Assembly (NCBI GenBank): GCA_002448875.1
Contig: DKAS01000014.1
Span: forward strand, 1 to 12,082
From: Proteobacteria bacterium UBA6920
Lineage (GTDB): Bacteria > Pseudomonadota > Gammaproteobacteria > SG8-11
DNA length: 12,082 nt
Reading direction: 5' to 3'
Shown here in pieces: positions 2,270 to 11,819 of the stretch. Each line of letters starts with the position of its first letter. Within the stretch, counting starts at the first letter, position 1. The notes below the pieces were generated by a model that was not told the DNA's origin, did not search any database, and saw nothing but the letters and a program-made list of their open reading frames with translations. The position numbers were made by a program, and so were the translations under genes.

Positions 2270-5200
2270 ATGTTGCGTTTGCATTCAGGGGTAGGGCTCG
2301 CTGGTGCCATTCTGACCGCTTTGTTTATCACCGCCTGTGGCAATGGCGGAACGGGGGATTCACCCAGGGGTAACCTGCGCTACACGGGCCTGCATTCAGC
2401 CGCGCATGTCAGCCAGGGCAACGCCAATATCCTGGCCGCCGATATCTTTTTTTCGTATGACGCCCCGATTTACGCCGCATCTCTCGCTGTTCCGCGACAG
2501 GAAGTCACGAGTGGCGGATTTGTCCCCACCCTGGTAAAACGTCTGGACGACATCACCGCTAGCGCCGCGCCGCGTCTGCTGCTCGGCACGCAGGCCGGCT
2601 ATGCCGCGGTGTCTTCGGCTACCACCGCGGTCGGTTCGCCGATCGGCGACACGGGATCCAGCAGTGGTACGACGACCACCAACAATTCCAGCGACATTTG
2701 TTATATGAGCGGCAGCTATACGGTATCCAGCAATGTGCAGGATGATGGTACCGGAACCGTTACCTTCAAATTCGTGGATTGCGATGACAGTTCCGAAATT
2801 CTCAACGGCGTGGTAAGCGTTACCGTCCGTGCCTACAGTGTTGATTACAGCACCCCCGTGGACATGCGAATCAGTTATTCCGATCTGCGCATGAACGCAC
2901 GGGGTATGGATGCCACCTTGCACGGCACCGTGGACCTGAAGGTGGCGCTGGAGGAATATTCGGAGACCTATCGCGTCAATCTGGTGCTGCAGGACAATCT
3001 GGCGCAGAAGGCGGTGCAGTGGCGTGATGTCACCATCATCGATAAAATGGGCGTGGATTATTATTATTCCGATTATGTCGAAACCATTACCGGTCGCATC
3101 TATGATTCGAAGGAAGGCTACGTGGATATCACCACGGAGCAGCCGTTGCACTTCTCCTACTATTACAGCACGTTTCCCGACGGTGGCGGCCCCCTGTTAC
3201 TGACCGGCGACAAAGGCAGTCGGGCGCGCCTGATGATCGTATCCAGCAGCAGGGCGCAGATCAGCGTCGACGAAGACGCCGATGGAGTCTTTGAGGCCAC
3301 CAATTTTTATTCCATTACCAACCTGGGCGGTACATCCCTGGTGAATCAGCCACCGGTCATAACGATGCTGCAGCTTTCACCGGCCACACCGGATCGTAGC
3401 AGTGTATTGCGGGCGCAGGTGTCGGCAAGCGATCCGGAAGGAGAGGAGTTGCAGATCACTTATATTTGGGCCCGCAACGATGTGATTATTGACGGTGCGG
3501 TGACGGATACGCTTGCAGCCACTGAATTTGCCAAGGGTGACAGTATAACATTCACCTGCAGCGTATCCGATGGCACCAGCACGGTCAGTCAAACAGCCTC
3601 GGTGGTAATCGGCGATACGCCGCCCGTATTCAGCGAACTGCCGCCGGCTGAGACGGTCTACGGTCAGCCGCTGTCGGTGCAATTGCAGGCCAGCGATGCC
3701 GACGGGGAAACCGTACAGTACTCGCTGGCCTATGGCCCGGATGGTATGCGGGTGGATACCGCCGGCAAGATGACGTGGACCGCCATTAGCCCAATGTTTC
3801 AGGATACCCTGGAAGTCCACTATGGGGTGCGGGCCAGCGCCGGCGCCGCCGAGACCGTGGCTGATTTTAGCATTGTGATCAAGGACGCAACCCGGGCCTT
3901 TGCCCTGGTGCACACCAGTATCGGTACACCGAGCCGGCCTAATGGCCTGGCGCTTGCCGATTTCGACGGCGACGGCATCAACGAGATCCTGATGAGCGAT
4001 CAGAGAAAAGCGCTGGCCATCCTGGGATATGATAAACAAAGCGGTGTCTACCGGGAGAAATGGGTCTATCCGTTCGATCTTGCGCCGGGCGGGAACATCG
4101 GCGTGGTGGCTGTACATGATGTCAATGCAGACAAGCGGCCGGATATCCTGGTGGCTGCGGGCAAGGGCATAACGGTATTGGATGGTGTAACCCACAAGAT
4201 ACTGACGATTATAGACGATCAATATGCGAGTCACTACGCCATTGAAATCAGCGATCTCGACCGCGACGGGCAGGAGGAAATCGTGGTTCTGGCGGGTGCC
4301 GAGGATTCCTACTACTCTGGCTCAGCACGCGAGACTATCAGCATCTACAAGCTGTCCGACTACAGTCTCATCTGGCGATCGCTGGAGCTTGATCTGGGTC
4401 CATCAGTTGCCGTGGGCAATGTCGATACGGATGCAGCGCTGGAAATTGTCACAGCCAAGGGTTATGTCTACGATGGCGCGACCCACTTGAACGAATGGGC
4501 CTATGGTCCAGGTTTCGGTTATGCCGTGGATACCGGCGATCTGGACAATGACGGCGTCGAGGAGATCGTCGGCGCGGTGGACTGGACGGCGGTGCGTGCT
4601 TACAGCGCGGTGCTGAAATCTCCTTTGTGGGAGATCACGCCGCCGTTCGCCGATCTGGGCGCGCTGCTGGTCACCAATATCGACGCCGATCCGGCCGCGG
4701 AAATCATCTTTGGCAACGGTCAATGGGGTAATGTGAGCGCCTATTCCTTCAATACCACGCAACGGTTGCCGGTGCTTGACTGGTCCATTGATGCGCAAAA
4801 CTGGGGAGTCAGCAGTCTCCTTGCCGGTGATGTGGATGGCGATGGTAAACTGGAAATCGTCTGGACGTCCGATAGCGGTGGACCGGGCGCCATGGTGGTG
4901 GCCGGCTTCAATCCCGCAATCGGCGTCGAGTGCAGCAACGGCGATTGTTTTCTGGGTACCAACAACCAGTATGCGGGGCCTTTCACCGGCGCGCGCTTCA
5001 TGAATACCGGCGCAGGTAAGCGCCAGGGTGTATTTGGCGTGAATAACGGCTCGAGCGCAGCATTGTTGGCGATTGATATGACCACGGGTGTGCTTAGCGC
5101 CAAGCCCCTCAATACCAGTTATTACTACTACACTTCCAATGTCCTGTTCGACAGCGTCGACTATGATGGCGATGGGGTGGATGAAGCCCTGATCGGCACG

Positions 5201-6010
5201 GCATATCAAACCAGTCCTTACTTCGCGGCTTATGACCCGGCACGCGGGGTCGAGGAATGGACGTCAGCGTTCAATCAGGGTACGGCCCAGGCCATGGCCC
5301 ACGGTGACCTGAATGGCGACGGCCACGCTGACCTGGTGGCACTGACCGAGGATGGCTATATCTATGTCTACGATATGTATGCTTCGACCTTGCTTTGGAA
5401 AAGCACCCAACTGCCTGGTAGTACCGGCTTTGATGTCAAGCTGGTGGATCTGGACAGCGATGGCGCGCCGGAGATCGTCGCCCTGTCACGGACCGCGCTT
5501 GCGGTCTACAAGAAAAATGAGCAATTTGGCTATATTCTTGCGACGAGCAAGACCCTGGGTGAGACATACAATTACTACAATACCTCGTATGCCTTGGCGG
5601 TGGGGGATTTCGACCAAAACGGAATTCCGGAAGTCCTGATAAATTTATATTCCGCCTATACAATCCCTGCGGTTGCTTACAATATGACTATTTTCGAGGG
5701 GGTCACGCTGGACGTTAAAGCCGCCTATGCATTTCCTTATGCGGTTACCGCGGTAACGGTTGGATCAGCGGCCGAGGGCCGGGCTAATTTGATCCTTGGC
5801 ATAACGCAGAATATCGACAGCTACAACTATTACAGCTCCGGTCACAATTTCATCGCGGCCATCGACGCTTATACCGGCAAGGAAATCTGGCGTTCACCGG
5901 ATCTGCTGGGCCCGGTGCAGTACAACAGCCTGTCTCTTTTCCTGGATGACGGCGACGGCCGGCAACGTCTGATCGTCGGCGGCTCTAACGCCATGTACAT
6001 CACCCGGTAG
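2270..6010 (+). CDS. Very large lipoprotein with Ig/cadherin-like domains and 14 FG-GAP/VCBS-type repeats
   Basis: A 1246-residue predicted exported lipoprotein. The N-terminus has a hydrophobic segment and lipobox ITAC with Cys23 as the lipidation site; Gly at +2 rather than Asp suggests outer-membrane destination. Residues 24-358 form an unrecognised beta-rich region with a Gly/Ser/Thr linker near 125-140 and a cysteine pair (144, 171). Residues 359-450 (NQPPVITMLQL... VSDGTSTVSQTASVVI) look like an Ig/PKD-type domain and 449-540 like a cadherin/putative-Ig domain. From about 544 to the end there are Ca2+-loop repeats of the DxDxDG...E type starting at 564, 617, 662, 717, 757, 803, 854, 964, 1013, 1060 and 1113, with degenerate copies near 910, 1165 and 1226. 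Spacing of 40-61 residues fits 14 propeller blades. CSNGDC (888-893) may form a disulfide. Tyr clusters recur throughout. Start codon ATG 2270 follows a G-rich ribosome-binding region. It converges on argS with 12 bp between stops. Likely role is surface adhesion or ligand binding; the specific function is unknown. Confidence 0.88.
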   Translation: MLRLHSGVGLAGAILTALFITACGNGGTGDSPRGNLRYTGLHSAAHVSQGNANILAADIFFSYDAPIYAASLAVPRQEVTSGGFVPTLVKRLDDITASAAPRLLLGTQAGYAAVSSATTAVGSPIGDTGSSSGTTTTNNSSDICYMSGSYTVSSNVQDDGTGTVTFKFVDCDDSSEILNGVVSVTVRAYSVDYSTPVDMRISYSDLRMNARGMDATLHGTVDLKVALEEYSETYRVNLVLQDNLAQKAVQWRDVTIIDKMGVDYYYSDYVETITGRIYDSKEGYVDITTEQPLHFSYYYSTFPDGGGPLLLTGDKGSRARLMIVSSSRAQISVDEDADGVFEATNFYSITNLGGTSLVNQPPVITMLQLSPATPDRSSVLRAQVSASDPEGEELQITYIWARNDVIIDGAVTDTLAATEFAKGDSITFTCSVSDGTSTVSQTASVVIGDTPPVFSELPPAETVYGQPLSVQLQASDADGETVQYSLAYGPDGMRVDTAGKMTWTAISPMFQDTLEVHYGVRASAGAAETVADFSIVIKDATRAFALVHTSIGTPSRPNGLALADFDGDGINEILMSDQRKALAILGYDKQSGVYREKWVYPFDLAPGGNIGVVAVHDVNADKRPDILVAAGKGITVLDGVTHKILTIIDDQYASHYAIEISDLDRDGQEEIVVLAGAEDSYYSGSARETISIYKLSDYSLIWRSLELDLGPSVAVGNVDTDAALEIVTAKGYVYDGATHLNEWAYGPGFGYAVDTGDLDNDGVEEIVGAVDWTAVRAYSAVLKSPLWEITPPFADLGALLVTNIDADPAAEIIFGNGQWGNVSAYSFNTTQRLPVLDWSIDAQNWGVSSLLAGDVDGDGKLEIVWTSDSGGPGAMVVAGFNPAIGVECSNGDCFLGTNNQYAGPFTGARFMNTGAGKRQGVFGVNNGSSAALLAIDMTTGVLSAKPLNTSYYYYTSNVLFDSVDYDGDGVDEALIGTAYQTSPYFAAYDPARGVEEWTSAFNQGTAQAMAHGDLNGDGHADLVALTEDGYIYVYDMYASTLLWKSTQLPGSTGFDVKLVDLDSDGAPEIVALSRTALAVYKKNEQFGYILATSKTLGETYNYYNTSYALAVGDFDQNGIPEVLINLYSAYTIPAVAYNMTIFEGVTLDVKAAYAFPYAVTAVTVGSAAEGRANLILGITQNIDSYNYYSSGHNFIAAIDAYTGKEIWRSPDLLGPVQYNSLSLFLDDGDGRQRLIVGGSNAMYITR

Positions 6011-6022
6011 TGGCGGGTTGTC

Positions 6023-7759
6023 TCACATCTGGGCGATGGTCTCGATGCCCAGCAGATCCAGCCCGCGCTGCAGTACCGCCGCCGTGTGCCGGCACAGCAG
6101 CAGGCGGCTGCTGCGCGTGGCGTCCTCGGCCTTGAGCACCGGGCAGGCTTCGTAGAACTGCATGAACAGGCCGGCCAGGTCGTACAGGTAGCTGCACAGC
6201 AGGTTGGGATTGCAGTCGGCGGCGACCGCTTCCACCACTTCGCCCAGGCGCAGCAGGGCCAGGCCCAGTTTGCGTTCCGCCGGGTGTTCCAGGCGGATGT
6301 GGCCGGTGAAATGGGTGTCGCTCAACTCGCCCTTGCGGAAGATGCTGTTGATGCGGGCGCAGGCGTACAGCAGATAGGGCGCTGTATTGCCGTCCAGGGC
6401 CAGCATCTGATCCCAGCTGAAGATGTAGTCGTTGATGCGGTTTTTCGCCAGGTCGGCGTATTTCACCGCCGCCACACCGACGCTGCGGGCGATGGCGCGC
6501 AGTTCGCCTTCGCTCAGCTCCGGATTCTTGCCGCTGACCACCACATAAGCCCGCTGCTCGGCTTCGTCCAGCAGCTCCATCAGTTTGACGGTGCCGCCGG
6601 CGCGGGTTTTGAACGGCTTGCCGTCCTCACCCATCATGGTGCCGAAGGCCAGGTGTTCCAGGGAGCAGGTCGACGGCACGTAGCCGGCGAGGCGGGCGAC
6701 GGCGAACACCTGCTTCAGGTGCAGGCTCTGCCGGGCGTCGACGAAATACAGAACCCGGTCGGCTCGCAATTCCGAACCACGGTGGCGCAGGGCGGCCAGG
6801 TCGGTGGTGGCATAGAGATAGCCGCCGTCGGATTTCTGCACGATGACGGGCAGCGGCGCGCCGTCCTTGCCGGTGAATTCGTCGAGAAACACGCACTGGG
6901 CGCCCTCGGATTCGCGCAACAGCTTCTGCTTGCCCAGGTCTGCGATGACCCAGGGCAGATCGGTGTTGTAGGCGCTTTCCGCTTTGACGTCGCCGCGGCG
7001 CAGAGTGACGCCCAGACGCTCGTATACCCGTTCGCAGTGGCTCATGGAGGTATCGATGAACTGCTGCCACAGGCGCAGGCAATGGGCGTCGCCCGCCTGC
7101 AGTTTTACCACGTAGGCGCGGGCGGTATCGGCGAAGGCGGGTTCGGCGTCGAATTTCTGCTTGGCGTTGCGATAGAAGCCTTCGAGGTCCTCCAGGGCCA
7201 GGCTGAGCTGGGCGGCGCCGCCGCTGCTCACATGCTCGATGTAGGCGATCAGCATGCCGAACTGGGTGCCCCAGTCGCCCACGTGGTTCTGGCGGATGAC
7301 CCGGTGACCGAGAAATTCCAGCACCCGCACCACGGCGTCGCCGATGATGGTGCTGCGCAGGTGGCCGACGTGCATCTCCTTGGCCAGGTTGGGCGAAGAG
7401 TAGTCGACGACCATGGTCTGCGGCTGCGCCGCTGGCTCCACCCCCAGGTGAGCTTCGCTCAAGGCGCCGTCCAGGCGTTTGCCCAGCCAGGTGTCGTGCA
7501 GGGTGATGTTGATGAATCCCGGCCCGGCGATTTCCACTTTGCTGGCGATATCACTCAGATCCAGGGCGTCAACCACTTTTTGCGCCAGCGCTCGCGGCGG
7601 CTGGCGCAGGCTTTTGGCGACGGCCATGGCGCCGTTGGCCTGGTAGTCGCCGAATTCCGGACGGCCGGCGGGGGCAAGCTGGGGATTGGCATCGGCGGGG
7701 GCGCCGGCCTGTTGAAATGCCTGCTGAAAACGCTGTTCGAGTAGTTTGCGAATATGCAT
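6023..7759 (-). CDS. argS: Arginyl-tRNA synthetase
   Basis: A 578-residue class I aminoacyl-tRNA synthetase that attaches arginine to tRNA-Arg in the cytoplasm; the length matches the E. coli enzyme (577). Residues 1-100 form the ArgRS-specific Add-1 domain (EFGDYQANGAMAVAK, 35-49; KVEIAGPGFINI, 74-85). The signature SSPNLAKEMHVGHLRST (121-137) contains the HIGH-type motif H130-V-G-H133, followed by NHVGDWGTQFGML (158-170). As in many ArgRS proteins, the KMSKS motif is degenerate, here KTRAG near 384-388. The C-terminal DALR-type helical domain includes ALDGNTAPYLLYACARI (454-470) and ends in IETIAQM. The start agrees with the family N-terminus although no clear Shine-Dalgarno sequence precedes it. 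It stands alone, divergent from the PilZ gene. Confidence 0.98.
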   Translation of the reverse strand: MHIRKLLEQRFQQAFQQAGAPADANPQLAPAGRPEFGDYQANGAMAVAKSLRQPPRALAQKVVDALDLSDIASKVEIAGPGFINITLHDTWLGKRLDGALSEAHLGVEPAAQPQTMVVDYSSPNLAKEMHVGHLRSTIIGDAVVRVLEFLGHRVIRQNHVGDWGTQFGMLIAYIEHVSSGGAAQLSLALEDLEGFYRNAKQKFDAEPAFADTARAYVVKLQAGDAHCLRLWQQFIDTSMSHCERVYERLGVTLRRGDVKAESAYNTDLPWVIADLGKQKLLRESEGAQCVFLDEFTGKDGAPLPVIVQKSDGGYLYATTDLAALRHRGSELRADRVLYFVDARQSLHLKQVFAVARLAGYVPSTCSLEHLAFGTMMGEDGKPFKTRAGGTVKLMELLDEAEQRAYVVVSGKNPELSEGELRAIARSVGVAAVKYADLAKNRINDYIFSWDQMLALDGNTAPYLLYACARINSIFRKGELSDTHFTGHIRLEHPAERKLGLALLRLGEVVEAVAADCNPNLLCSYLYDLAGLFMQFYEACPVLKAEDATRSSRLLLCRHTAAVLQRGLDLLGIETIAQM

Positions 7760-7806: not shown

Positions 7807-7955
7807 CCATTTGCCGCCGCTCCGGCGACGTGCCGGGACCGATCTCGAACCCGCGTCGCCAGCGCCGGGCGAGGTTGTCGGTCGGCGTGGGGGGGCGAAC
7901 GTGGCCGGGCGAATGACTTCTTGCCCGCGATGGCCGGCTGTGGGAGACAATGTTT
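7807..7955. other. GC-rich gap between the argS and PilZ promoters
   Basis: The 340-bp divergent gap between argS and the PilZ gene holds a promoter-like element on each side and a folded leader on the right. This middle portion is GC-rich, contains a run of seven G residues near 7890, and shows no gene, RNA gene or convincing repeat that I can identify. Short open frames on both strands here look incidental. Confidence 0.4.
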
Positions 7956-7970
7956 TGCTATAAGAATAGC
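7956..7970 (+). promoter_or_regulatory. Extended -10 within a small palindrome, upstream of the PilZ gene
   Basis: TGC followed by TATAAG (7959-7964) forms an extended -10 pattern. It lies inside a perfect 5-bp dyad GCTAT/ATAGC (7957-7961, 7966-7970), which could be an operator half-site pair. No clear -35 is seen. Transcription starting near 7971 would give a leader of about 130 nt. Confidence 0.45.
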
Positions 7971-7994
7971 CCGTGGCATAACTTGCAATTCTTC

Positions 7995-8090
7995 ATCTAT
8001 CCGTGCCCCGGTCCCATTGCAGAGCCGATGAGTGGGGACGATAGATATTACACGAGTAAAACTGTCGGATATTTCGGCTGCCGCCCGAAA
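7995..8090 (+). promoter_or_regulatory. Structured 5' leader of the PilZ gene, two hairpins
   Basis: Hairpin 1 pairs ATCTAT (7995-8000) with ATAGAT (8041-8046), then CGT (8002-8004) with ACG (8038-8040), then CCCC (8006-8009) with GGGG (8034-8037): 13 pairs with two single-base bulges. Hairpin 2 pairs TTTCGG (8072-8077) with CCGAAA (8085-8090) around a seven-base loop, and its 3' arm runs into the Shine-Dalgarno sequence AGGAGG (8090-8095). This could control translation. The conserved bases of the GEMM c-di-GMP riboswitches are not seen. Confidence 0.45.
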
Positions 8091-8099
8091 GGAGGTTGT

Positions 8100-8747
8100 A
8101 TGAATCTGTTTCAGTTAAAAAATGTGGTACGCACCGCGCCACGGGCGGTAGTTCCGGCCACGGCTGGATTGTACCGGGGAGGGAAATTTCTGGGAGCGTA
8201 CCAGGTGGCCAATCTTTCCAGCAGCGGCGCCCTGCTGGTCGACGGGCCGGCACTGCGCAAACGCAGCGTTTACCGGATGCGGCTGTCGCTGTCGAGCGAC
8301 CTGCATCTGCCTGTCGACTGCCAGGTGCGCCGGCGTCAGGTGGATGGCCAGGGCAAGCTGTTCACCGGTGTGTCTTTCCTCAATATTGGTTCCGACATGA
8401 CGCTTTTTCTCGACAGTCTCGTGTCGGCGCGCCTGGACCTTCAGGCGCAGCGCAGCTGGCGCGCCTTGCTGGTCGATGGCGCGACGTCCCGCGGACGCCG
8501 CATGCAGGCAGACCTGCAGAGGCTGGGTTTGCAGGTGGAGCGGGCGGAACAGCCGCTGGACATCATCCGCCAGCTGCGGGAGCACGGCGACACCATCAAG
8601 GTGGTCATTATTCATCAGCCCGCGCAACTTACTGACGGCGGCGAGCTGCTGAATTATTTGCAGCAGACTTATCCGCAGATCCGCAGTTTTCTTCTGACCG
8701 GCACCGTATCGTTAAAGGCCGCGCTAGCTGAGTTGAATGCCGCCTGA
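8100..8747 (+). CDS. PilZ-domain protein with degenerate receiver-like C-terminal domain
   Basis: A 215-residue cytoplasmic protein. Residues 8-110 carry a PilZ domain, the c-di-GMP receptor fold: R11-TAP-R15 supplies the RxxxR motif and N38-LSSS-G43 the (D/N)xSxxG motif, so ligand binding is expected. Residues 119-215 look like a shortened response-regulator receiver: RALLVDG (121-127) resembles the acidic strand, VVIIHQ (168-173) occupies the phospho-acceptor strand with His172 where Asp is expected, and SFLLTG (196-201) the Thr strand. The conserved distal Lys region is missing. Phosphorylation is therefore unlikely. The frame is open from 7950, but ATG 8100 is chosen because AGGAGG lies just upstream and the PilZ motif begins at residue 11. 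A role in c-di-GMP-dependent motility or surface behaviour is inferred from the domain only. Confidence 0.85.
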   Translation: MNLFQLKNVVRTAPRAVVPATAGLYRGGKFLGAYQVANLSSSGALLVDGPALRKRSVYRMRLSLSSDLHLPVDCQVRRRQVDGQGKLFTGVSFLNIGSDMTLFLDSLVSARLDLQAQRSWRALLVDGATSRGRRMQADLQRLGLQVERAEQPLDIIRQLREHGDTIKVVIIHQPAQLTDGGELLNYLQQTYPQIRSFLLTGTVSLKAALAELNAA

Positions 8748-8791: not shown

Positions 8792-8806
8792 CCGCCATTC
8801 AGGCGG
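8792..8806. terminator. Weak hairpin between the convergent PilZ and endonuclease genes
   Basis: CCGCC (8792-8796) and GGCGG (8802-8806) form a 5-bp stem with a five-base loop that overlaps the stop codon of the minus-strand endonuclease gene. It lies about 45 nt beyond the PilZ stop. Neither side has a strong T-run, so it is only a possible bidirectional terminator. Confidence 0.25.
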
Positions 8807-9230
8807 GCTTAATTGCTAGAAATGTCGCGACGAAGTGTTCGCGCAACACACGAAATTCGGCGGAATATTTACCATTGCGCGGGGTCAGGGCGAGATATTC
8901 TCGCAGCACCAGGGCAGCGCGCCGCGCTTTGTAGGAGCGAAGATAAGGTGCGATACGGGCAATAATCTGCAAGGCTTGTCTATTGGACAAAGTGTAGGTG
9001 TAACTGGGCGAGTGTTTGTTCGAATATACTCTTCTGCTGGTAATTTGCCCCATGCTGGTAGCATTCTGGACATATTCCAGTAAATATCTCTCCGTGCTGC
9101 TGATGCTAAGTACCAGTTGTCGATTTTCGTTGCGGTGGCGTCGTGACAAGGTAATGGTGCCTTCGCCATCCATCAGACCAGCGATGTAGGCCGCTTCTGC
9201 ATCTGTCAATGTCTGGAGGGTGCATTCCAT
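8799..9230 (-). CDS. Free-standing LAGLIDADG homing endonuclease
   Basis: A 143-residue protein with one LAGLIDADG motif, AAYIAGLMDGEGTITLSRR (about 13-31), in which D22 and/or E24 would contribute the metal-binding acidic residue. Family proteins with a single motif act as homodimers and cut long, nearly palindromic sites to start homing. After the motif come beta-strand segments (RQLVLSISSTERYLLEYV, SYTYTLSNRQALQIIARI) and a basic C-terminal helical portion, the usual single-domain layout. The frame is open to a TTG at 9257, but ATG 9230 is preferred because GGGAG lies six bases upstream. The gene is 3' of the intron-bearing ssrA in the same orientation, beyond a strong terminator hairpin, so it is not inside the intron. 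Its target is probably the intron-free ssrA T-arm or a nearby site, but this is inference. No truncation or frameshift is seen. Confidence 0.85.
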   Translation of the reverse strand: MECTLQTLTDAEAAYIAGLMDGEGTITLSRRHRNENRQLVLSISSTERYLLEYVQNATSMGQITSRRVYSNKHSPSYTYTLSNRQALQIIARIAPYLRSYKARRAALVLREYLALTPRNGKYSAEFRVLREHFVATFLAIKPA

Positions 9231-9271
9231 TGCTTTCTCCCGTTTCCTGAGCAGCAATAGTTAACTGGATA

Positions 9272-9349: not shown

Positions 9350-9385
9350 GATAAAGAAGGCCGGACAGCCCTGTGGGCTGTCCGG
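9350..9385 (-). terminator. Intrinsic terminator of ssrA
   Basis: A perfect 11-bp stem CCGGACAGCCC (9361-9371) / GGGCTGTCCGG (9375-9385) with a three-base loop begins 10 nt after the encoded CCA of tmRNA; on the minus strand CCTTCTTTATC follows. A competing hairpin, CCGGCTT (9343-9349) with AAGGCCGG (9357-9364, one bulge), overlaps the 3' arm, so the two folds exclude each other. Confidence 0.75.
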
Positions 9386-9411: not shown

Positions 9412-9661
9412 CAGCTGTTCCATATTTTTCAATATGGGCTGGACTATGCTTTCACCTGCCGGCGGCAGGGGAGGGCGTATTGTGGATGCTGGCATCCACC
9501 CTAGTGCTTCATAGCAAAAGCCTTAGAAGCCTATGAGTCTCTAGCCGGCTTACCCGTTTCCGGTTCACCGGACGGCGTTGGCATAGGTTTGTACCCTTAG
9601 CGTTCACCGTATGAGCCCTCTTTTCCAACGGGGATTACTCCCCGTGGCGACCATTGCGTTA
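9412..9661 (-). mobile_element. ORF-less group I intron in the tmRNA T-loop
   Basis: The 250-nt insert has a group I core. The 5' exon ends in U9662, which forms the conserved U-G pair with G9651 in P1 (CGAU 9665-9662 with GUCG 9651-9648), and the intron ends in G9412 (omega G). P2 is ACGGGG/CCCCGT (9645-9640, 9633-9628). P3 is CCTATG (9587-9582) with CATAGG (9535-9530). The R-like segment CTAGAGACTCATAG and S-like segment GCATAGTCCAG give P7, GACT (9539-9536) with AGTC (9445-9442). P8 is CTTC/GAAG (9529-9526, 9510-9507), with two further hairpins before the P7 3' strand. P9 is CCATATT-GAAA-AATATGG (9437-9420), a GNRA-capped stem. The core strings resemble those of bacterial tRNA introns such as Azoarcus; the subgroup was not established. 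Insertion is between tRNA-like positions 59 and 60. It encodes no protein. Confidence 0.9.
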
Positions 9662-10066: not shown

Positions 10067-10549
10067 TCAGCGCTTGCCGGCCTTCAGCAGCCGGCCCTTT
10101 TCCCGCTGCCAGTCGCGGTCGCGCTCGGTTTCGCGCTTGTCGTGCTGCTTCTTGCCCTTGGCCAGGCCCACTTCCACCTTGGCGCGGCCGCCTTTCCAGT
10201 ACATGGCGGTGGCGATCAGGGTGTAGCCCTTGCGTTCGACGTTGCCAATCAGCTTGTTCAGCTCCTCCCGATGCAGCAGCAGCTTGCGCGTGCGGGTGGG
10301 GTCGGGGATGAAGTGGGTAGAGACCGTGTTCAGCGGCGTGATCAGGCAGCCCAGCAGCCAGGCTTCGCCGTTCTTGATCAGTACATAGCTGTCCACCAGC
10401 TGGCACTTGCCGGCGCGCAGGCTCTTGACTTCCCAGCCCTGCAGGGCGATGCCGGCCTCGAAACGGTCTTCGAAAAAATAGTCGTGACCGGCCCGTTTGT
10501 TGAGGGCGATGGTCTTGTTGCCGGATTTCTGCTGTTCTTTTTTCGCCAT
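10067..10549 (-). CDS. smpB: SsrA-binding protein SmpB
   Basis: A 160-residue tmRNA-binding protein needed for trans-translation. The OB-type barrel is recognisable by [18 protein letters not shown] (17-34), [14 protein letters not shown] (36-49), EAWLLG (62-67) and the [11 protein letters not shown] signature (131-141). The basic C-terminal tail [15 protein letters not shown] (146-160) is the part that folds in the decoding centre. Length is the usual 150-160. The ATG start matches the family, though no clear Shine-Dalgarno sequence lies upstream. ssrA follows in the same orientation 60 bp downstream, so the two partners of ribosome rescue are neighbours. ratA is divergent on the other side. 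Confidence 0.98.
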
Positions 10550-10757: not shown

Positions 10758-11189
10758 GTGCCAGTCATCAAGAAAAGCGCTTTATTGCCCTATACCGCCG
10801 CCCAGGTCTACGTCCTGGTGGAGGCGGTGGAGGACTATCCTCAATTTCTGCCCTGGTGCGGCGCCGCCCATATTATCGAGCGGGGGCAGGACGAGGTGCG
10901 GGCCAGTATCACCATCGATCACAAAGGGATACGCAAAGCCTTTACCACCCAGAATCGCCACCAGCCCGGTAAACTGATCGAGATGCGCCTGGTGGAAGGG
11001 CCGTTTCGCCTGCTGGAAGGCTTCTGGCGCTTCGAGGATCTGGGCTCCAACGGCTGCAAGGTGTCCCTGGATCTGGAGTTCGAATTTTCCAGCAAGTTGA
11101 TCGCGCTGGCCGTGGGTCCGGTGTTCAACCAGATCGCCAATACCCTGGTCGATGCTTTTTGTCATCGGGCGAAGGCGGTATATGGCTGA
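10758..11189 (+). CDS. ratA: RatA-like START/COQ10-family protein
   Basis: A 143-residue protein of the COQ10/START helix-grip family. It aligns with E. coli RatA, described as a ribosome-association toxin that binds 50S and blocks 70S formation; related eukaryotic Coq10 proteins bind ubiquinone, so the physiological role is debated. Landmarks are SALLPYTAAQVYVLVEAVEDY (7-27), YPQFLPWC (27-34), LVEGPFRLLEGFWRF and LDLEFEFSSKLIALAVGPVFNQIANTLVDAFCHRAKAVY at the end. GTG 10758 is chosen because the E. coli protein starts at the equivalent residue; a TTG at 10719 would add 13 residues not expected in the family. No strong Shine-Dalgarno is seen for either. Its stop overlaps the start of ratB by 8 bp, indicating translational coupling. 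Confidence 0.9.
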   Translation: MPVIKKSALLPYTAAQVYVLVEAVEDYPQFLPWCGAAHIIERGQDEVRASITIDHKGIRKAFTTQNRHQPGKLIEMRLVEGPFRLLEGFWRFEDLGSNGCKVSLDLEFEFSSKLIALAVGPVFNQIANTLVDAFCHRAKAVYG

Positions 11190-11496
11190 GGAACAGATGA
11201 CGGTGGAGGTGGCCTACGCCCTGCCGGAACAGCAGAGCATCATCGCCCTGCAGGTTCCGGTCGGCACCACCGCAGAACAGGCCATCGTCCTGTCGGGCAT
11301 CCGGTGTCTTTTTCCGCAGATCGAACGGGAAGAGCATAAAATCGGCGTCTTCAGCAAGGTATGCAAAGGCGATCAGGTGTTGCGCGAGGGCGATCGGGTG
11401 GAAATCTATCGCAAGCTGATCGCCGATCCCAAAGCGGTGCGCAAACAGCGGGCGGCCGAGGGCAAGCCGATGAAAAAAGGCGGCGCCGACGCTTAG
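11182..11496 (+). CDS. ratB: RnfH-family protein (RatB)
   Basis: A 104-residue small ubiquitin-like beta-grasp protein of the RnfH/RatB (UPF0125) family. The pattern VEVAYALPEQQ (9-19), GTTAEQAIVLSGI, KIGVFSKV and GDRVEIYRKLIADPK followed by a basic tail (VRKQRAAEGKPMKKGG) matches the family end to end. It was named RatB as the supposed partner of RatA in E. coli, but antitoxin activity is not established. ATG 11182 gives an 8-bp overlap with ratA and lies after GGCGG; an internal ATG at 11197 is possible. The 3' end overlaps the bamE stop codon on the other strand by 4 bp. Confidence 0.92.
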   Translation: MAEEQMTVEVAYALPEQQSIIALQVPVGTTAEQAIVLSGIRCLFPQIEREEHKIGVFSKVCKGDQVLREGDRVEIYRKLIADPKAVRKQRAAEGKPMKKGGADA

Positions 11497-11819
11497 TCGA
11501 TCTTGTCGACGGTCAAGGGGATTTTTTCGATTTTGGCCACTGTGTCGTTCTCGAATACGACTGTGACGCGGCCGGTTTCGACGGATTGGTCGACCACTTC
11601 GTAGCGATAGACATAATCCCAGCGATTCGGATGGAAGACGTCGTTGATCAGCGGCGTGCCCATGAGAAAGCGCACCTGGTTGCGGTCCATGCCCAGGGTA
11701 AGTTTCTCGATTTTCGCCGGTTCCAGTACATTGCCCTGCTGGATATCCGGCCGGTGAACGGAACAGCCGGCGAAGGCCAGGGTTGCAATGCAGGGGAGAA
11801 CAATGCGAAGCTTAACCAT
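11493..11819 (-). CDS. bamE: Outer membrane assembly lipoprotein BamE (SmpA/OmlA)
   Basis: A 108-residue lipoprotein of the BamABCDE machine that folds beta-barrel proteins into the outer membrane. A short signal peptide ends in the lipobox FAGC with Cys19 lipidated and Ser at +2, which permits transport to the outer membrane. The mature part shows the BamE/SmpA signature: KIEKLTLGMDRNQVRFLMGTP, then the HPNRWDYVYRYE segment and a final strand pair VTVVFENDTVAKIE. Length is normal. The gene converges with ratB and diverges from fur, an order known from pseudomonads. The Shine-Dalgarno sequence is weak. Confidence 0.96.
   Translation of the reverse strand: MVKLRIVLPCIATLAFAGCSVHRPDIQQGNVLEPAKIEKLTLGMDRNQVRFLMGTPLINDVFHPNRWDYVYRYEVVDQSVETGRVTVVFENDTVAKIEKIPLTVDKID

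Follow-up and report, generated by a model that had tools for sequence, protein, structure and literature searches.

Group I introns in the T-loop of tmRNA are rare, having been counted in 883 of 97,179 unique tmRNA sequences in a 2025 survey, most of them at position 7 of the loop, the commonest insertion site, which occurs in 21 phyla (PMC11915505). In that survey, an endonuclease gene is placed inside 36 of the 883 introns (4.1%), as compared with 54% of archaeal rRNA introns, and amongst the founding 844 intron-form tmRNAs, 23 have such a gene, 19 of them in P7.1 and four after P9 (PMC11915505). A different arrangement is known from cyanophage S-PM2, in which the gene for F-CphI adjoins the intron-bearing psbA gene. 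There, the intron prevents self-cleavage and F-CphI, which is not a LAGLIDADG enzyme, gives the intron the chance to invade, a relationship termed collaborative homing (PMC6083498). According to a 2014 review, collaborative homing had been described for two phages (PMC3984707).

We analysed a stretch of 12,082 nucleotides from Proteobacteria bacterium UBA6920 (contig DKAS01000014.1), hereafter the window, in which the tmRNA gene is split at this same T-loop site and is followed by a predicted endonuclease gene. The features of the locus are as follows:

10067-10549, minus strand: smpB, upstream of tmRNA (Pfam SmpB, 198.1 bits)
10006-9662, minus strand: tmRNA (ssrA) exon 1, from the 5' acceptor strand through the tag reading frame (ANDDNYALAA) and pseudoknots to the T-loop TTCGAT (RF00023, ARAGORN)
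9661-9412, minus strand: predicted group I intron of 250 nt at T-loop position 7 (pair counts over 19 introns; RF00028 on three of eight sister loci)
9411-9395, minus strand: tmRNA exon 2, TCCCGCCGCCTCCACCA, comprising the T-stem 3' strand, the acceptor 3' strand and CCA (ARAGORN on the joined exons; pattern and model searches)
9361-9385, minus strand: terminator-like hairpin (11-bp stem) separating exon 2 from the endonuclease gene (consensus scan, fold)
8799-9230, minus strand: predicted LAGLIDADG homing endonuclease gene, outside the intron (Pfam, AlphaFold2, fold match)
7950-8747, plus strand: PilZ-domain gene, convergent with and adjoining the 3' end of the endonuclease gene (Pfam PilZ, 33.6 bits)

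Elsewhere in the window, a tRNA gene on the minus strand (1-65, 51.1 bits) is cut by the window edge, and a reading frame of 1246 aa (2270-6010) contains FG-GAP repeats and has a start that appears lipoprotein-like by eye.

A sequence-only reading of this DNA had proposed a group I intron splitting the T-loop of tmRNA, a perfect T-arm once the exons are joined, and the rarity of such introns; the survey counts given above agree with the last of these. As regards the first two, the Rfam tmRNA model RF00023 matched the minus strand from 9998 to 9660 (185.4 bits) and stopped in the T-loop, leaving out the T-stem 3' strand and the CCA end. ARAGORN detected no tmRNA gene in the raw window sequence, and recognized a full one when the intron was cut out in silico, i.e., a tmRNA of 362 nt (10006-9662 plus 9411-9395) with the tag ANDDNYALAA. 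In the joined molecule, the acceptor and T-stem strands pair and the T-arm reads GCGGG-TTCGATT-CCCGC, exactly as had been expected. The source genome yielded one full tmRNA match. As its assembly is 79.75% complete, there is room for a second copy elsewhere; it is reasonable to infer that trans-translation in this cell depends on splicing.

All of the elements that the same reading had named were located within the insert. The U at position -1 pairs with a G in P1, P3 is formed by 9620-9615/9476-9471 and P7 by 9541-9536/9445-9441, a P8 hairpin is present, P9 (about 9437-9420) is capped by the GNRA tetraloop GAAA, and the terminal omega G is 9412. With its P7.1 and P7.2, which are IA-like, the intron belongs to the first of two subfamilies, a and b, that share 50-60% identity with each other (11 introns compared). 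The check proposed alongside these elements, a search with the Rfam group I model RF00028, failed to match the window insert at E up to 1 or up to 10. RF00028 did match three of eight related loci over the intron, with ends within about 30 bases (E 9e-7, 9e-6 and 8.5e-4), all three below the gathering score; three of five loci of subfamily b were matched and none of three of subfamily a. Its failure is a matter of model sensitivity and not of defining chemistry. Because this direct test failed on the window, homologues and pair counts were used instead.

To this end, 19 introns at the same site were aligned, i.e., those of the window, one further locus from the genome_contigs collection and 17 genomes. 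A total of 26 intron loci were seen; seven of them (G086, G187, G197, G371, G373, G381 and G387), either later finds or truncated at contig ends, are outside the alignment. The helices P1, P2, P3, P4, P5, P6, P7, P7.1, P7.2 and P9 were scored, giving 51 pairs and 967 cells, with P8 left out owing to a one-base register shift between the two subfamilies. Standard pairs occupied 99.3% of the cells, as compared with 78.1% in shuffles and 31-44% with slid partners, the structure having been drawn after viewing these same introns, which favours the fold over its slid versions. Changes on both sides of a pair were seen in 28 of the 51 pairs (shuffle mean 24.2, equalled by one of 500 shuffles) and in 219 cells (shuffle mean 83.1, equalled by no shuffle). 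By helix, they affected 7/7 pairs of P2, 4/6 of P3, 1/2 of P5, 2/4 of P6 and none of P1 or P4. P7 is invariant and thus uninformative for covariation, and the changes in P1 are confined to one side; the assignments of these two helices therefore rest on sequence and position. The U-G pair at the 5' splice site and a G as last intron base were present in 19/19 introns. Taken together, these comparisons identify the insert as a group I intron that is predicted to self-splice. An intron in another genome (L078 of G036, 1865-1518) is 348 nt long and has an internal repeat in its P7.1 region, with no endonuclease gene nearby.

The window intron is real and ordinary for its kind. It shares with the tmRNA intron form described previously the host gene, the insertion subsite at position 7, the -1 U and the omega G, and is of similar length (250 nt here, against a founding-set average of 293 bp); however, endonuclease genes were there counted inside the intron, whereas here the gene lies behind exon 2 and the terminator-like hairpin (PMC11915505).

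This gene, which lies outside the stretch covered by the sequence-only reading and was missed by it, encodes 143 aa from an ATG at 9230, with a TTG start at 9257 also possible. The ATG is 164 nt past the CCA end, beyond the 11-bp hairpin, and a consensus scan found no sigma-70-like promoter between the tmRNA end and the gene. Pfam assigned the product to PF14528 (33.1 bits) and PF00961 (31.9 bits), both above cut-off. Its AlphaFold2 model had a mean pLDDT of 90, and the best fold match by Foldseek was I-MsoI (E 1.4e-7), with I-MsoI and I-CreI being closest; I-MsoI was also the closest by sequence. The best match had a TM of 0.73 by query length, with most of the top ten at 0.67-0.76 and identity at about 20%. 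The motif residues D21, G22, E23 and G24 are invariant in 45 aligned relatives, picked among 120 of 1080 matches. By domain, motif and fold, the protein is a predicted LAGLIDADG homing endonuclease.

Enzymes of the I-MsoI/I-CreI type carry a single motif, act as homodimers on near-palindromic sites and are encoded inside introns of rRNA genes. The window protein resembles them in its single LAGLIDADG motif and its predicted fold, and differs in that its gene is outside the intron, beside tmRNA, the T-arm of which is a natural inverted repeat. Some LAGLIDADG proteins are maturases, and two maturase structures (2ab5 and 1p8k) were present among the fold matches, such that the protein might instead aid the splicing of the intron. 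We consider this highly improbable, given that introns persist beside decayed or shortened genes (G336, G039, G314, G189, G197, G060, G387 and G371) as well as in genomes in which no endonuclease was seen (G381, G036, G086, G095 and G187).

No relatives of the endonuclease were found in plasmids. Phages yielded 11 records, the best of which had 36.8% identity, and viral contigs yielded nine loci, with at best 61-62% identity over 21-23 residues. Amongst the matches listed, proteins of Thioalkalivibrio and Parahaliea belong to the same endonuclease family, and two close relatives, P0002 with 64% and P0012 with 60% identity, bear the names of Nitrospirae or Nitrospiraceae genomes. As judged by these names, the family may extend to more than one phylum.

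The endonuclease was detected at E<=1e-10 in 17 of 369 genomes of the class, and in each of these the gene immediately follows tmRNA and shares its strand; contig ends cut three of these regions (G039, G197 and G244). The genome_contigs collection contained two relatives, both directly behind split tmRNA genes, and one of these is on the contig of G334, so that a single locus is added. In the 10 loci with an intact gene, the start codon (as chosen by script) lies 31-164 nt past the CCA end. The endonuclease is rare overall, since, in 393 genomes drawn from the phylum (partly the same ones as above), it occurred in the window's own genome alone.

To count introns in the same genomes, the exon-2 pattern GTCCCGCCGCCTCCACCA was tried and rejected. 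It matched 23 genomes, five of which (G191, G053, G239, G124 and G335) contain intact tmRNA genes with a G before TCCC, and it was replaced for this reason by a model, R1, that spans the intron 3' half and exon 2 (89 positions, 17 of them from exon 2) and thereby favours tmRNA. Members of this same genome set served to build R1, which was applied with strict filters and may therefore miss diverged introns. At E<1e-18 it identified 21 intron genomes among the 369, with one match each, all with tmRNA exon 2; in G187 and G197 the contig starts inside the intron and exon 1 is outside the assembled sequence. A further seven matches were weak (E 5e-4 to 8e-3) and proved to be intact tmRNA genes matched through exon 2. 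Spread of the intron among tRNA-like genes, which the sequence-only reading had thought possible, found no backing: 21/21 strong matches precede tmRNA exon 2, and no intron was seen in tRNA genes of the 369 genomes with R1, whose model includes exon 2.

The endonuclease (E<=1e-10, relics excluded) was present in 15/21 intron genomes and in 2/348 others (Fisher p 4e-20), not every one of which need contain an assembled tmRNA gene. Weak relics are in place in two more intron genomes, G163 (E about 1e-6) and G307 (E 0.007), and the remaining four (G036, G086, G095 and G187) had no endonuclease trace in the examined flank. These four, together with the endonuclease relics that lie beside intron-free tmRNA in G084 and G018, could be taken to indicate that the free-standing endonuclease gene is an element in its own right, with the tmRNA 3' end as its target site, and that the intron is a separate entity, surviving there by blocking cutting, with no joint transfer of the two. 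The strength of the association (15/21 vs 2/348) speaks against such independence, as does the block-wise organization of the locus in one genus.

Within this genus (g48), the only two genomes of their family in the sample, G049 and G189, have introns of different subfamilies. Their homology runs at 76.5% over 1374 columns up to the last base of exon 1, is weak thereafter, and is high again behind the endonuclease gene (88.6% over 201, E 3e-71), where it begins a single base ahead of another complete copy of GGGTTCGATTCCCGCCGCCTCCACCA. This displaced tmRNA end lies 15 nt past the endonuclease stop in G049 and 125 nt past it in G189, where the gene is shortened. On account of these homology boundaries, we take exon 1 and the displaced native end to flank a segment made up of intron, exon 2 and endonuclease gene. 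A decayed displaced copy was also found in G334, 20 nt past the stop codon (20/26 positions; shuffle maximum 17). In all three genomes, about 490-520 nt containing the endonuclease gene or its remnant separate exon 2 from the displaced copy. Of 20 loci examined for displaced copies, 17, the window among them, had none; the best candidate in the window matched 14/26 positions, i.e., chance level (shuffle mean 15.1).

The g48 blocks, in which each intron is accompanied by exon 2 and an endonuclease gene and which share their native flanks on both sides, thus add to the case against an independent free-standing endonuclease, a reading that is further helped by the weak correlation of intron and endonuclease distances described below and that we regard, on balance, as unlikely. 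The displaced ends also bear on whether the endonuclease is cargo, or a remnant, of integrase-driven genomic islands, with the second 3' end as an att site. The tmRNA gene is a known island site (PMC11915505), a 680-nt repeat in G018 recurs 8.4 kb apart at the tmRNA end, and, in G049 and G334, Fic-domain genes are located to the right of the displaced end. The 490-520 nt between exon 2 and the displaced copy are, however, too short for an integrase in G049, G189 and G334, and no further 26-mer copies (<=7 mismatches) occur in the approximately 46, 13 and 40 kb scanned around these three loci, respectively, which renders an island origin improbable. The Fic-domain genes (L058, 3615-5165; L064, 2755-3900) belong to two genomes of different families.

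As in genomic islands at the tmRNA gene, the 3' end has been replaced and the old end displaced; unlike in those islands, the copies are approximately 0.5 kb apart, there is no integrase and the left copy contains an intron. It is conceivable, at somewhat less than even chances in our estimation, that the intron, the replacement 3' exon and the external endonuclease gene constitute a compact mobile element of approximately 0.8 kb that inserts in the T-loop and displaces the old end without an integrase. Were this so, the element would have been overlooked in counts of endonuclease-bearing tmRNA introns, its gene being outside the intron.

In our preferred reading, which we hold to be likely, a group I intron occupies the commonest tmRNA site and has its mobility partner in the LAGLIDADG gene behind exon 2, even though this gene is external to it. 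By analogy, we read this layout as collaborative homing, known from phages and here located in bacterial chromosomes. The endonuclease, probably a homodimer, would cut an intronless tmRNA gene at the inverted repeat of the T-arm, and the break would be repaired from the donor, so that intron, exon 2 and endonuclease gene would all be copied. Once in place, the intron would split the target and shield the host from self-cutting, and self-splicing would restore the tmRNA. Later, the endonuclease gene would decay, and the intron could be lost precisely, with the relic staying behind the healed gene. The intron fold, the joining of the exons in silico, the recurrence of the endonuclease gene 3' of tmRNA, the loss stages presented below and the block boundaries in one genus support this scheme; the cleavage site, the protection by the intron, the transfer route and the splicing we infer.

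The nearest known case is that of F-CphI and psbA, in which, as here, a free-standing endonuclease gene adjoins the host gene of a group I intron that has none of its own. The present loci differ from it in being on bacterial chromosomes, in several families, and in involving an RNA gene, a LAGLIDADG enzyme and displaced gene ends, with cleavage being a prediction. The scheme would extend collaborative homing from phages to bacterial chromosomes of many families, and, within this class at any rate, an endonuclease gene outside the intron could account for part of the low share of tmRNA introns with such a gene inside (36/883). What may be new is the external position of the endonuclease gene, together with the displaced ends of the tmRNA gene and the fossils that remain once an intron is lost. 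A search of the open literature, mostly of titles and abstract openings and with subscription papers outside its scope, found no paper on an endonuclease gene beside tmRNA.

To compare the divergence of the partners, distance matrices were correlated by Mantel tests. Intron and endonuclease distances gave r 0.05 (P 0.26) over 10 loci and r 0.21 (P 0.04) over 11 loci; intron and exon 1 distances gave r 0.03 (P 0.33), and endonuclease and exon 1 distances r 0.42 (P 0.06). As intron and endonuclease distances are not clearly correlated, the two may not travel as one fixed unit. Partners may have been exchanged over time, which fits a collaboration better than a fixed element.

As the endonuclease gene is external, it stays behind as a fossil when the intron is lost, and the cycle of gain, decay and loss proposed for mobile introns could thus be read from genomes. 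Ten endonuclease genes are intact from the ATG to the conserved C-terminal motif (G000, JADZGE, G049, G244, G040, G109, G071, G334, G263 and G373), and all of them are beside introns. A further gene, in G312, is doubtful, its frame being open from the motif onward and the preceding ATG being in a different frame. Amongst intron-free tmRNA genes, the endonuclease was found in two cases, G084 and G018, and is decayed in both. The restriction of intact genes to intron-bearing loci is a weak test, because just these two intron-free cases exist. In the flanks of 46 mostly intron-free tmRNA genes, one clear relic was detected, L011, which is that of G018, along with one marginal match (E 0.005) at L132 of G338.

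The stages are best represented in family f81, the 20 genomes of which make up its whole order in the sample. We judged 11 tmRNA loci; eight genomes had no tmRNA match above cut-off, and the locus of G378 is cut. One locus has an intron and an intact endonuclease gene (G373), one an intron and the doubtful gene (G312), two an intron and a decayed gene (G387, and G371 at a contig end) and one an intron with no gene seen (G381). G084 has a decayed gene and no intron, and five loci have neither (G208, G384, G383, G377 and G379). The tmRNA region of G084 is 96.8% identical over 374 nt to that of intron-bearing G381, as compared with 91-93% for the five intron-free loci, and G084 groups with G381 in an exon 1 tree, with 75% support only. 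We read G084 as a putative case of precise intron loss in which the endonuclease gene was left behind.

Several loci showed further irregularities. In G018 (L074), a stretch of approximately 680 nt with the decayed endonuclease (2426-3105) is repeated at 10821-11499 with 98.8% identity; this second copy, 8.4 kb downstream, adjoins another fragment of the tmRNA gene end, giving the impression of an intervening island. The endonuclease gene of G060 (L073) is in two matching pieces, with about 2.5 kb between them. Behind the intron-free tmRNA gene of G338, there is a marginal similarity to the endonuclease (L132, about 1766-1855; E 0.005-0.007), possibly another fossil. Finally, G384 (L158) has a second tmRNA-like 3' part with a complete T-arm at about 5923-6032, approximately 4.8 kb behind its intact intron-free tmRNA gene.
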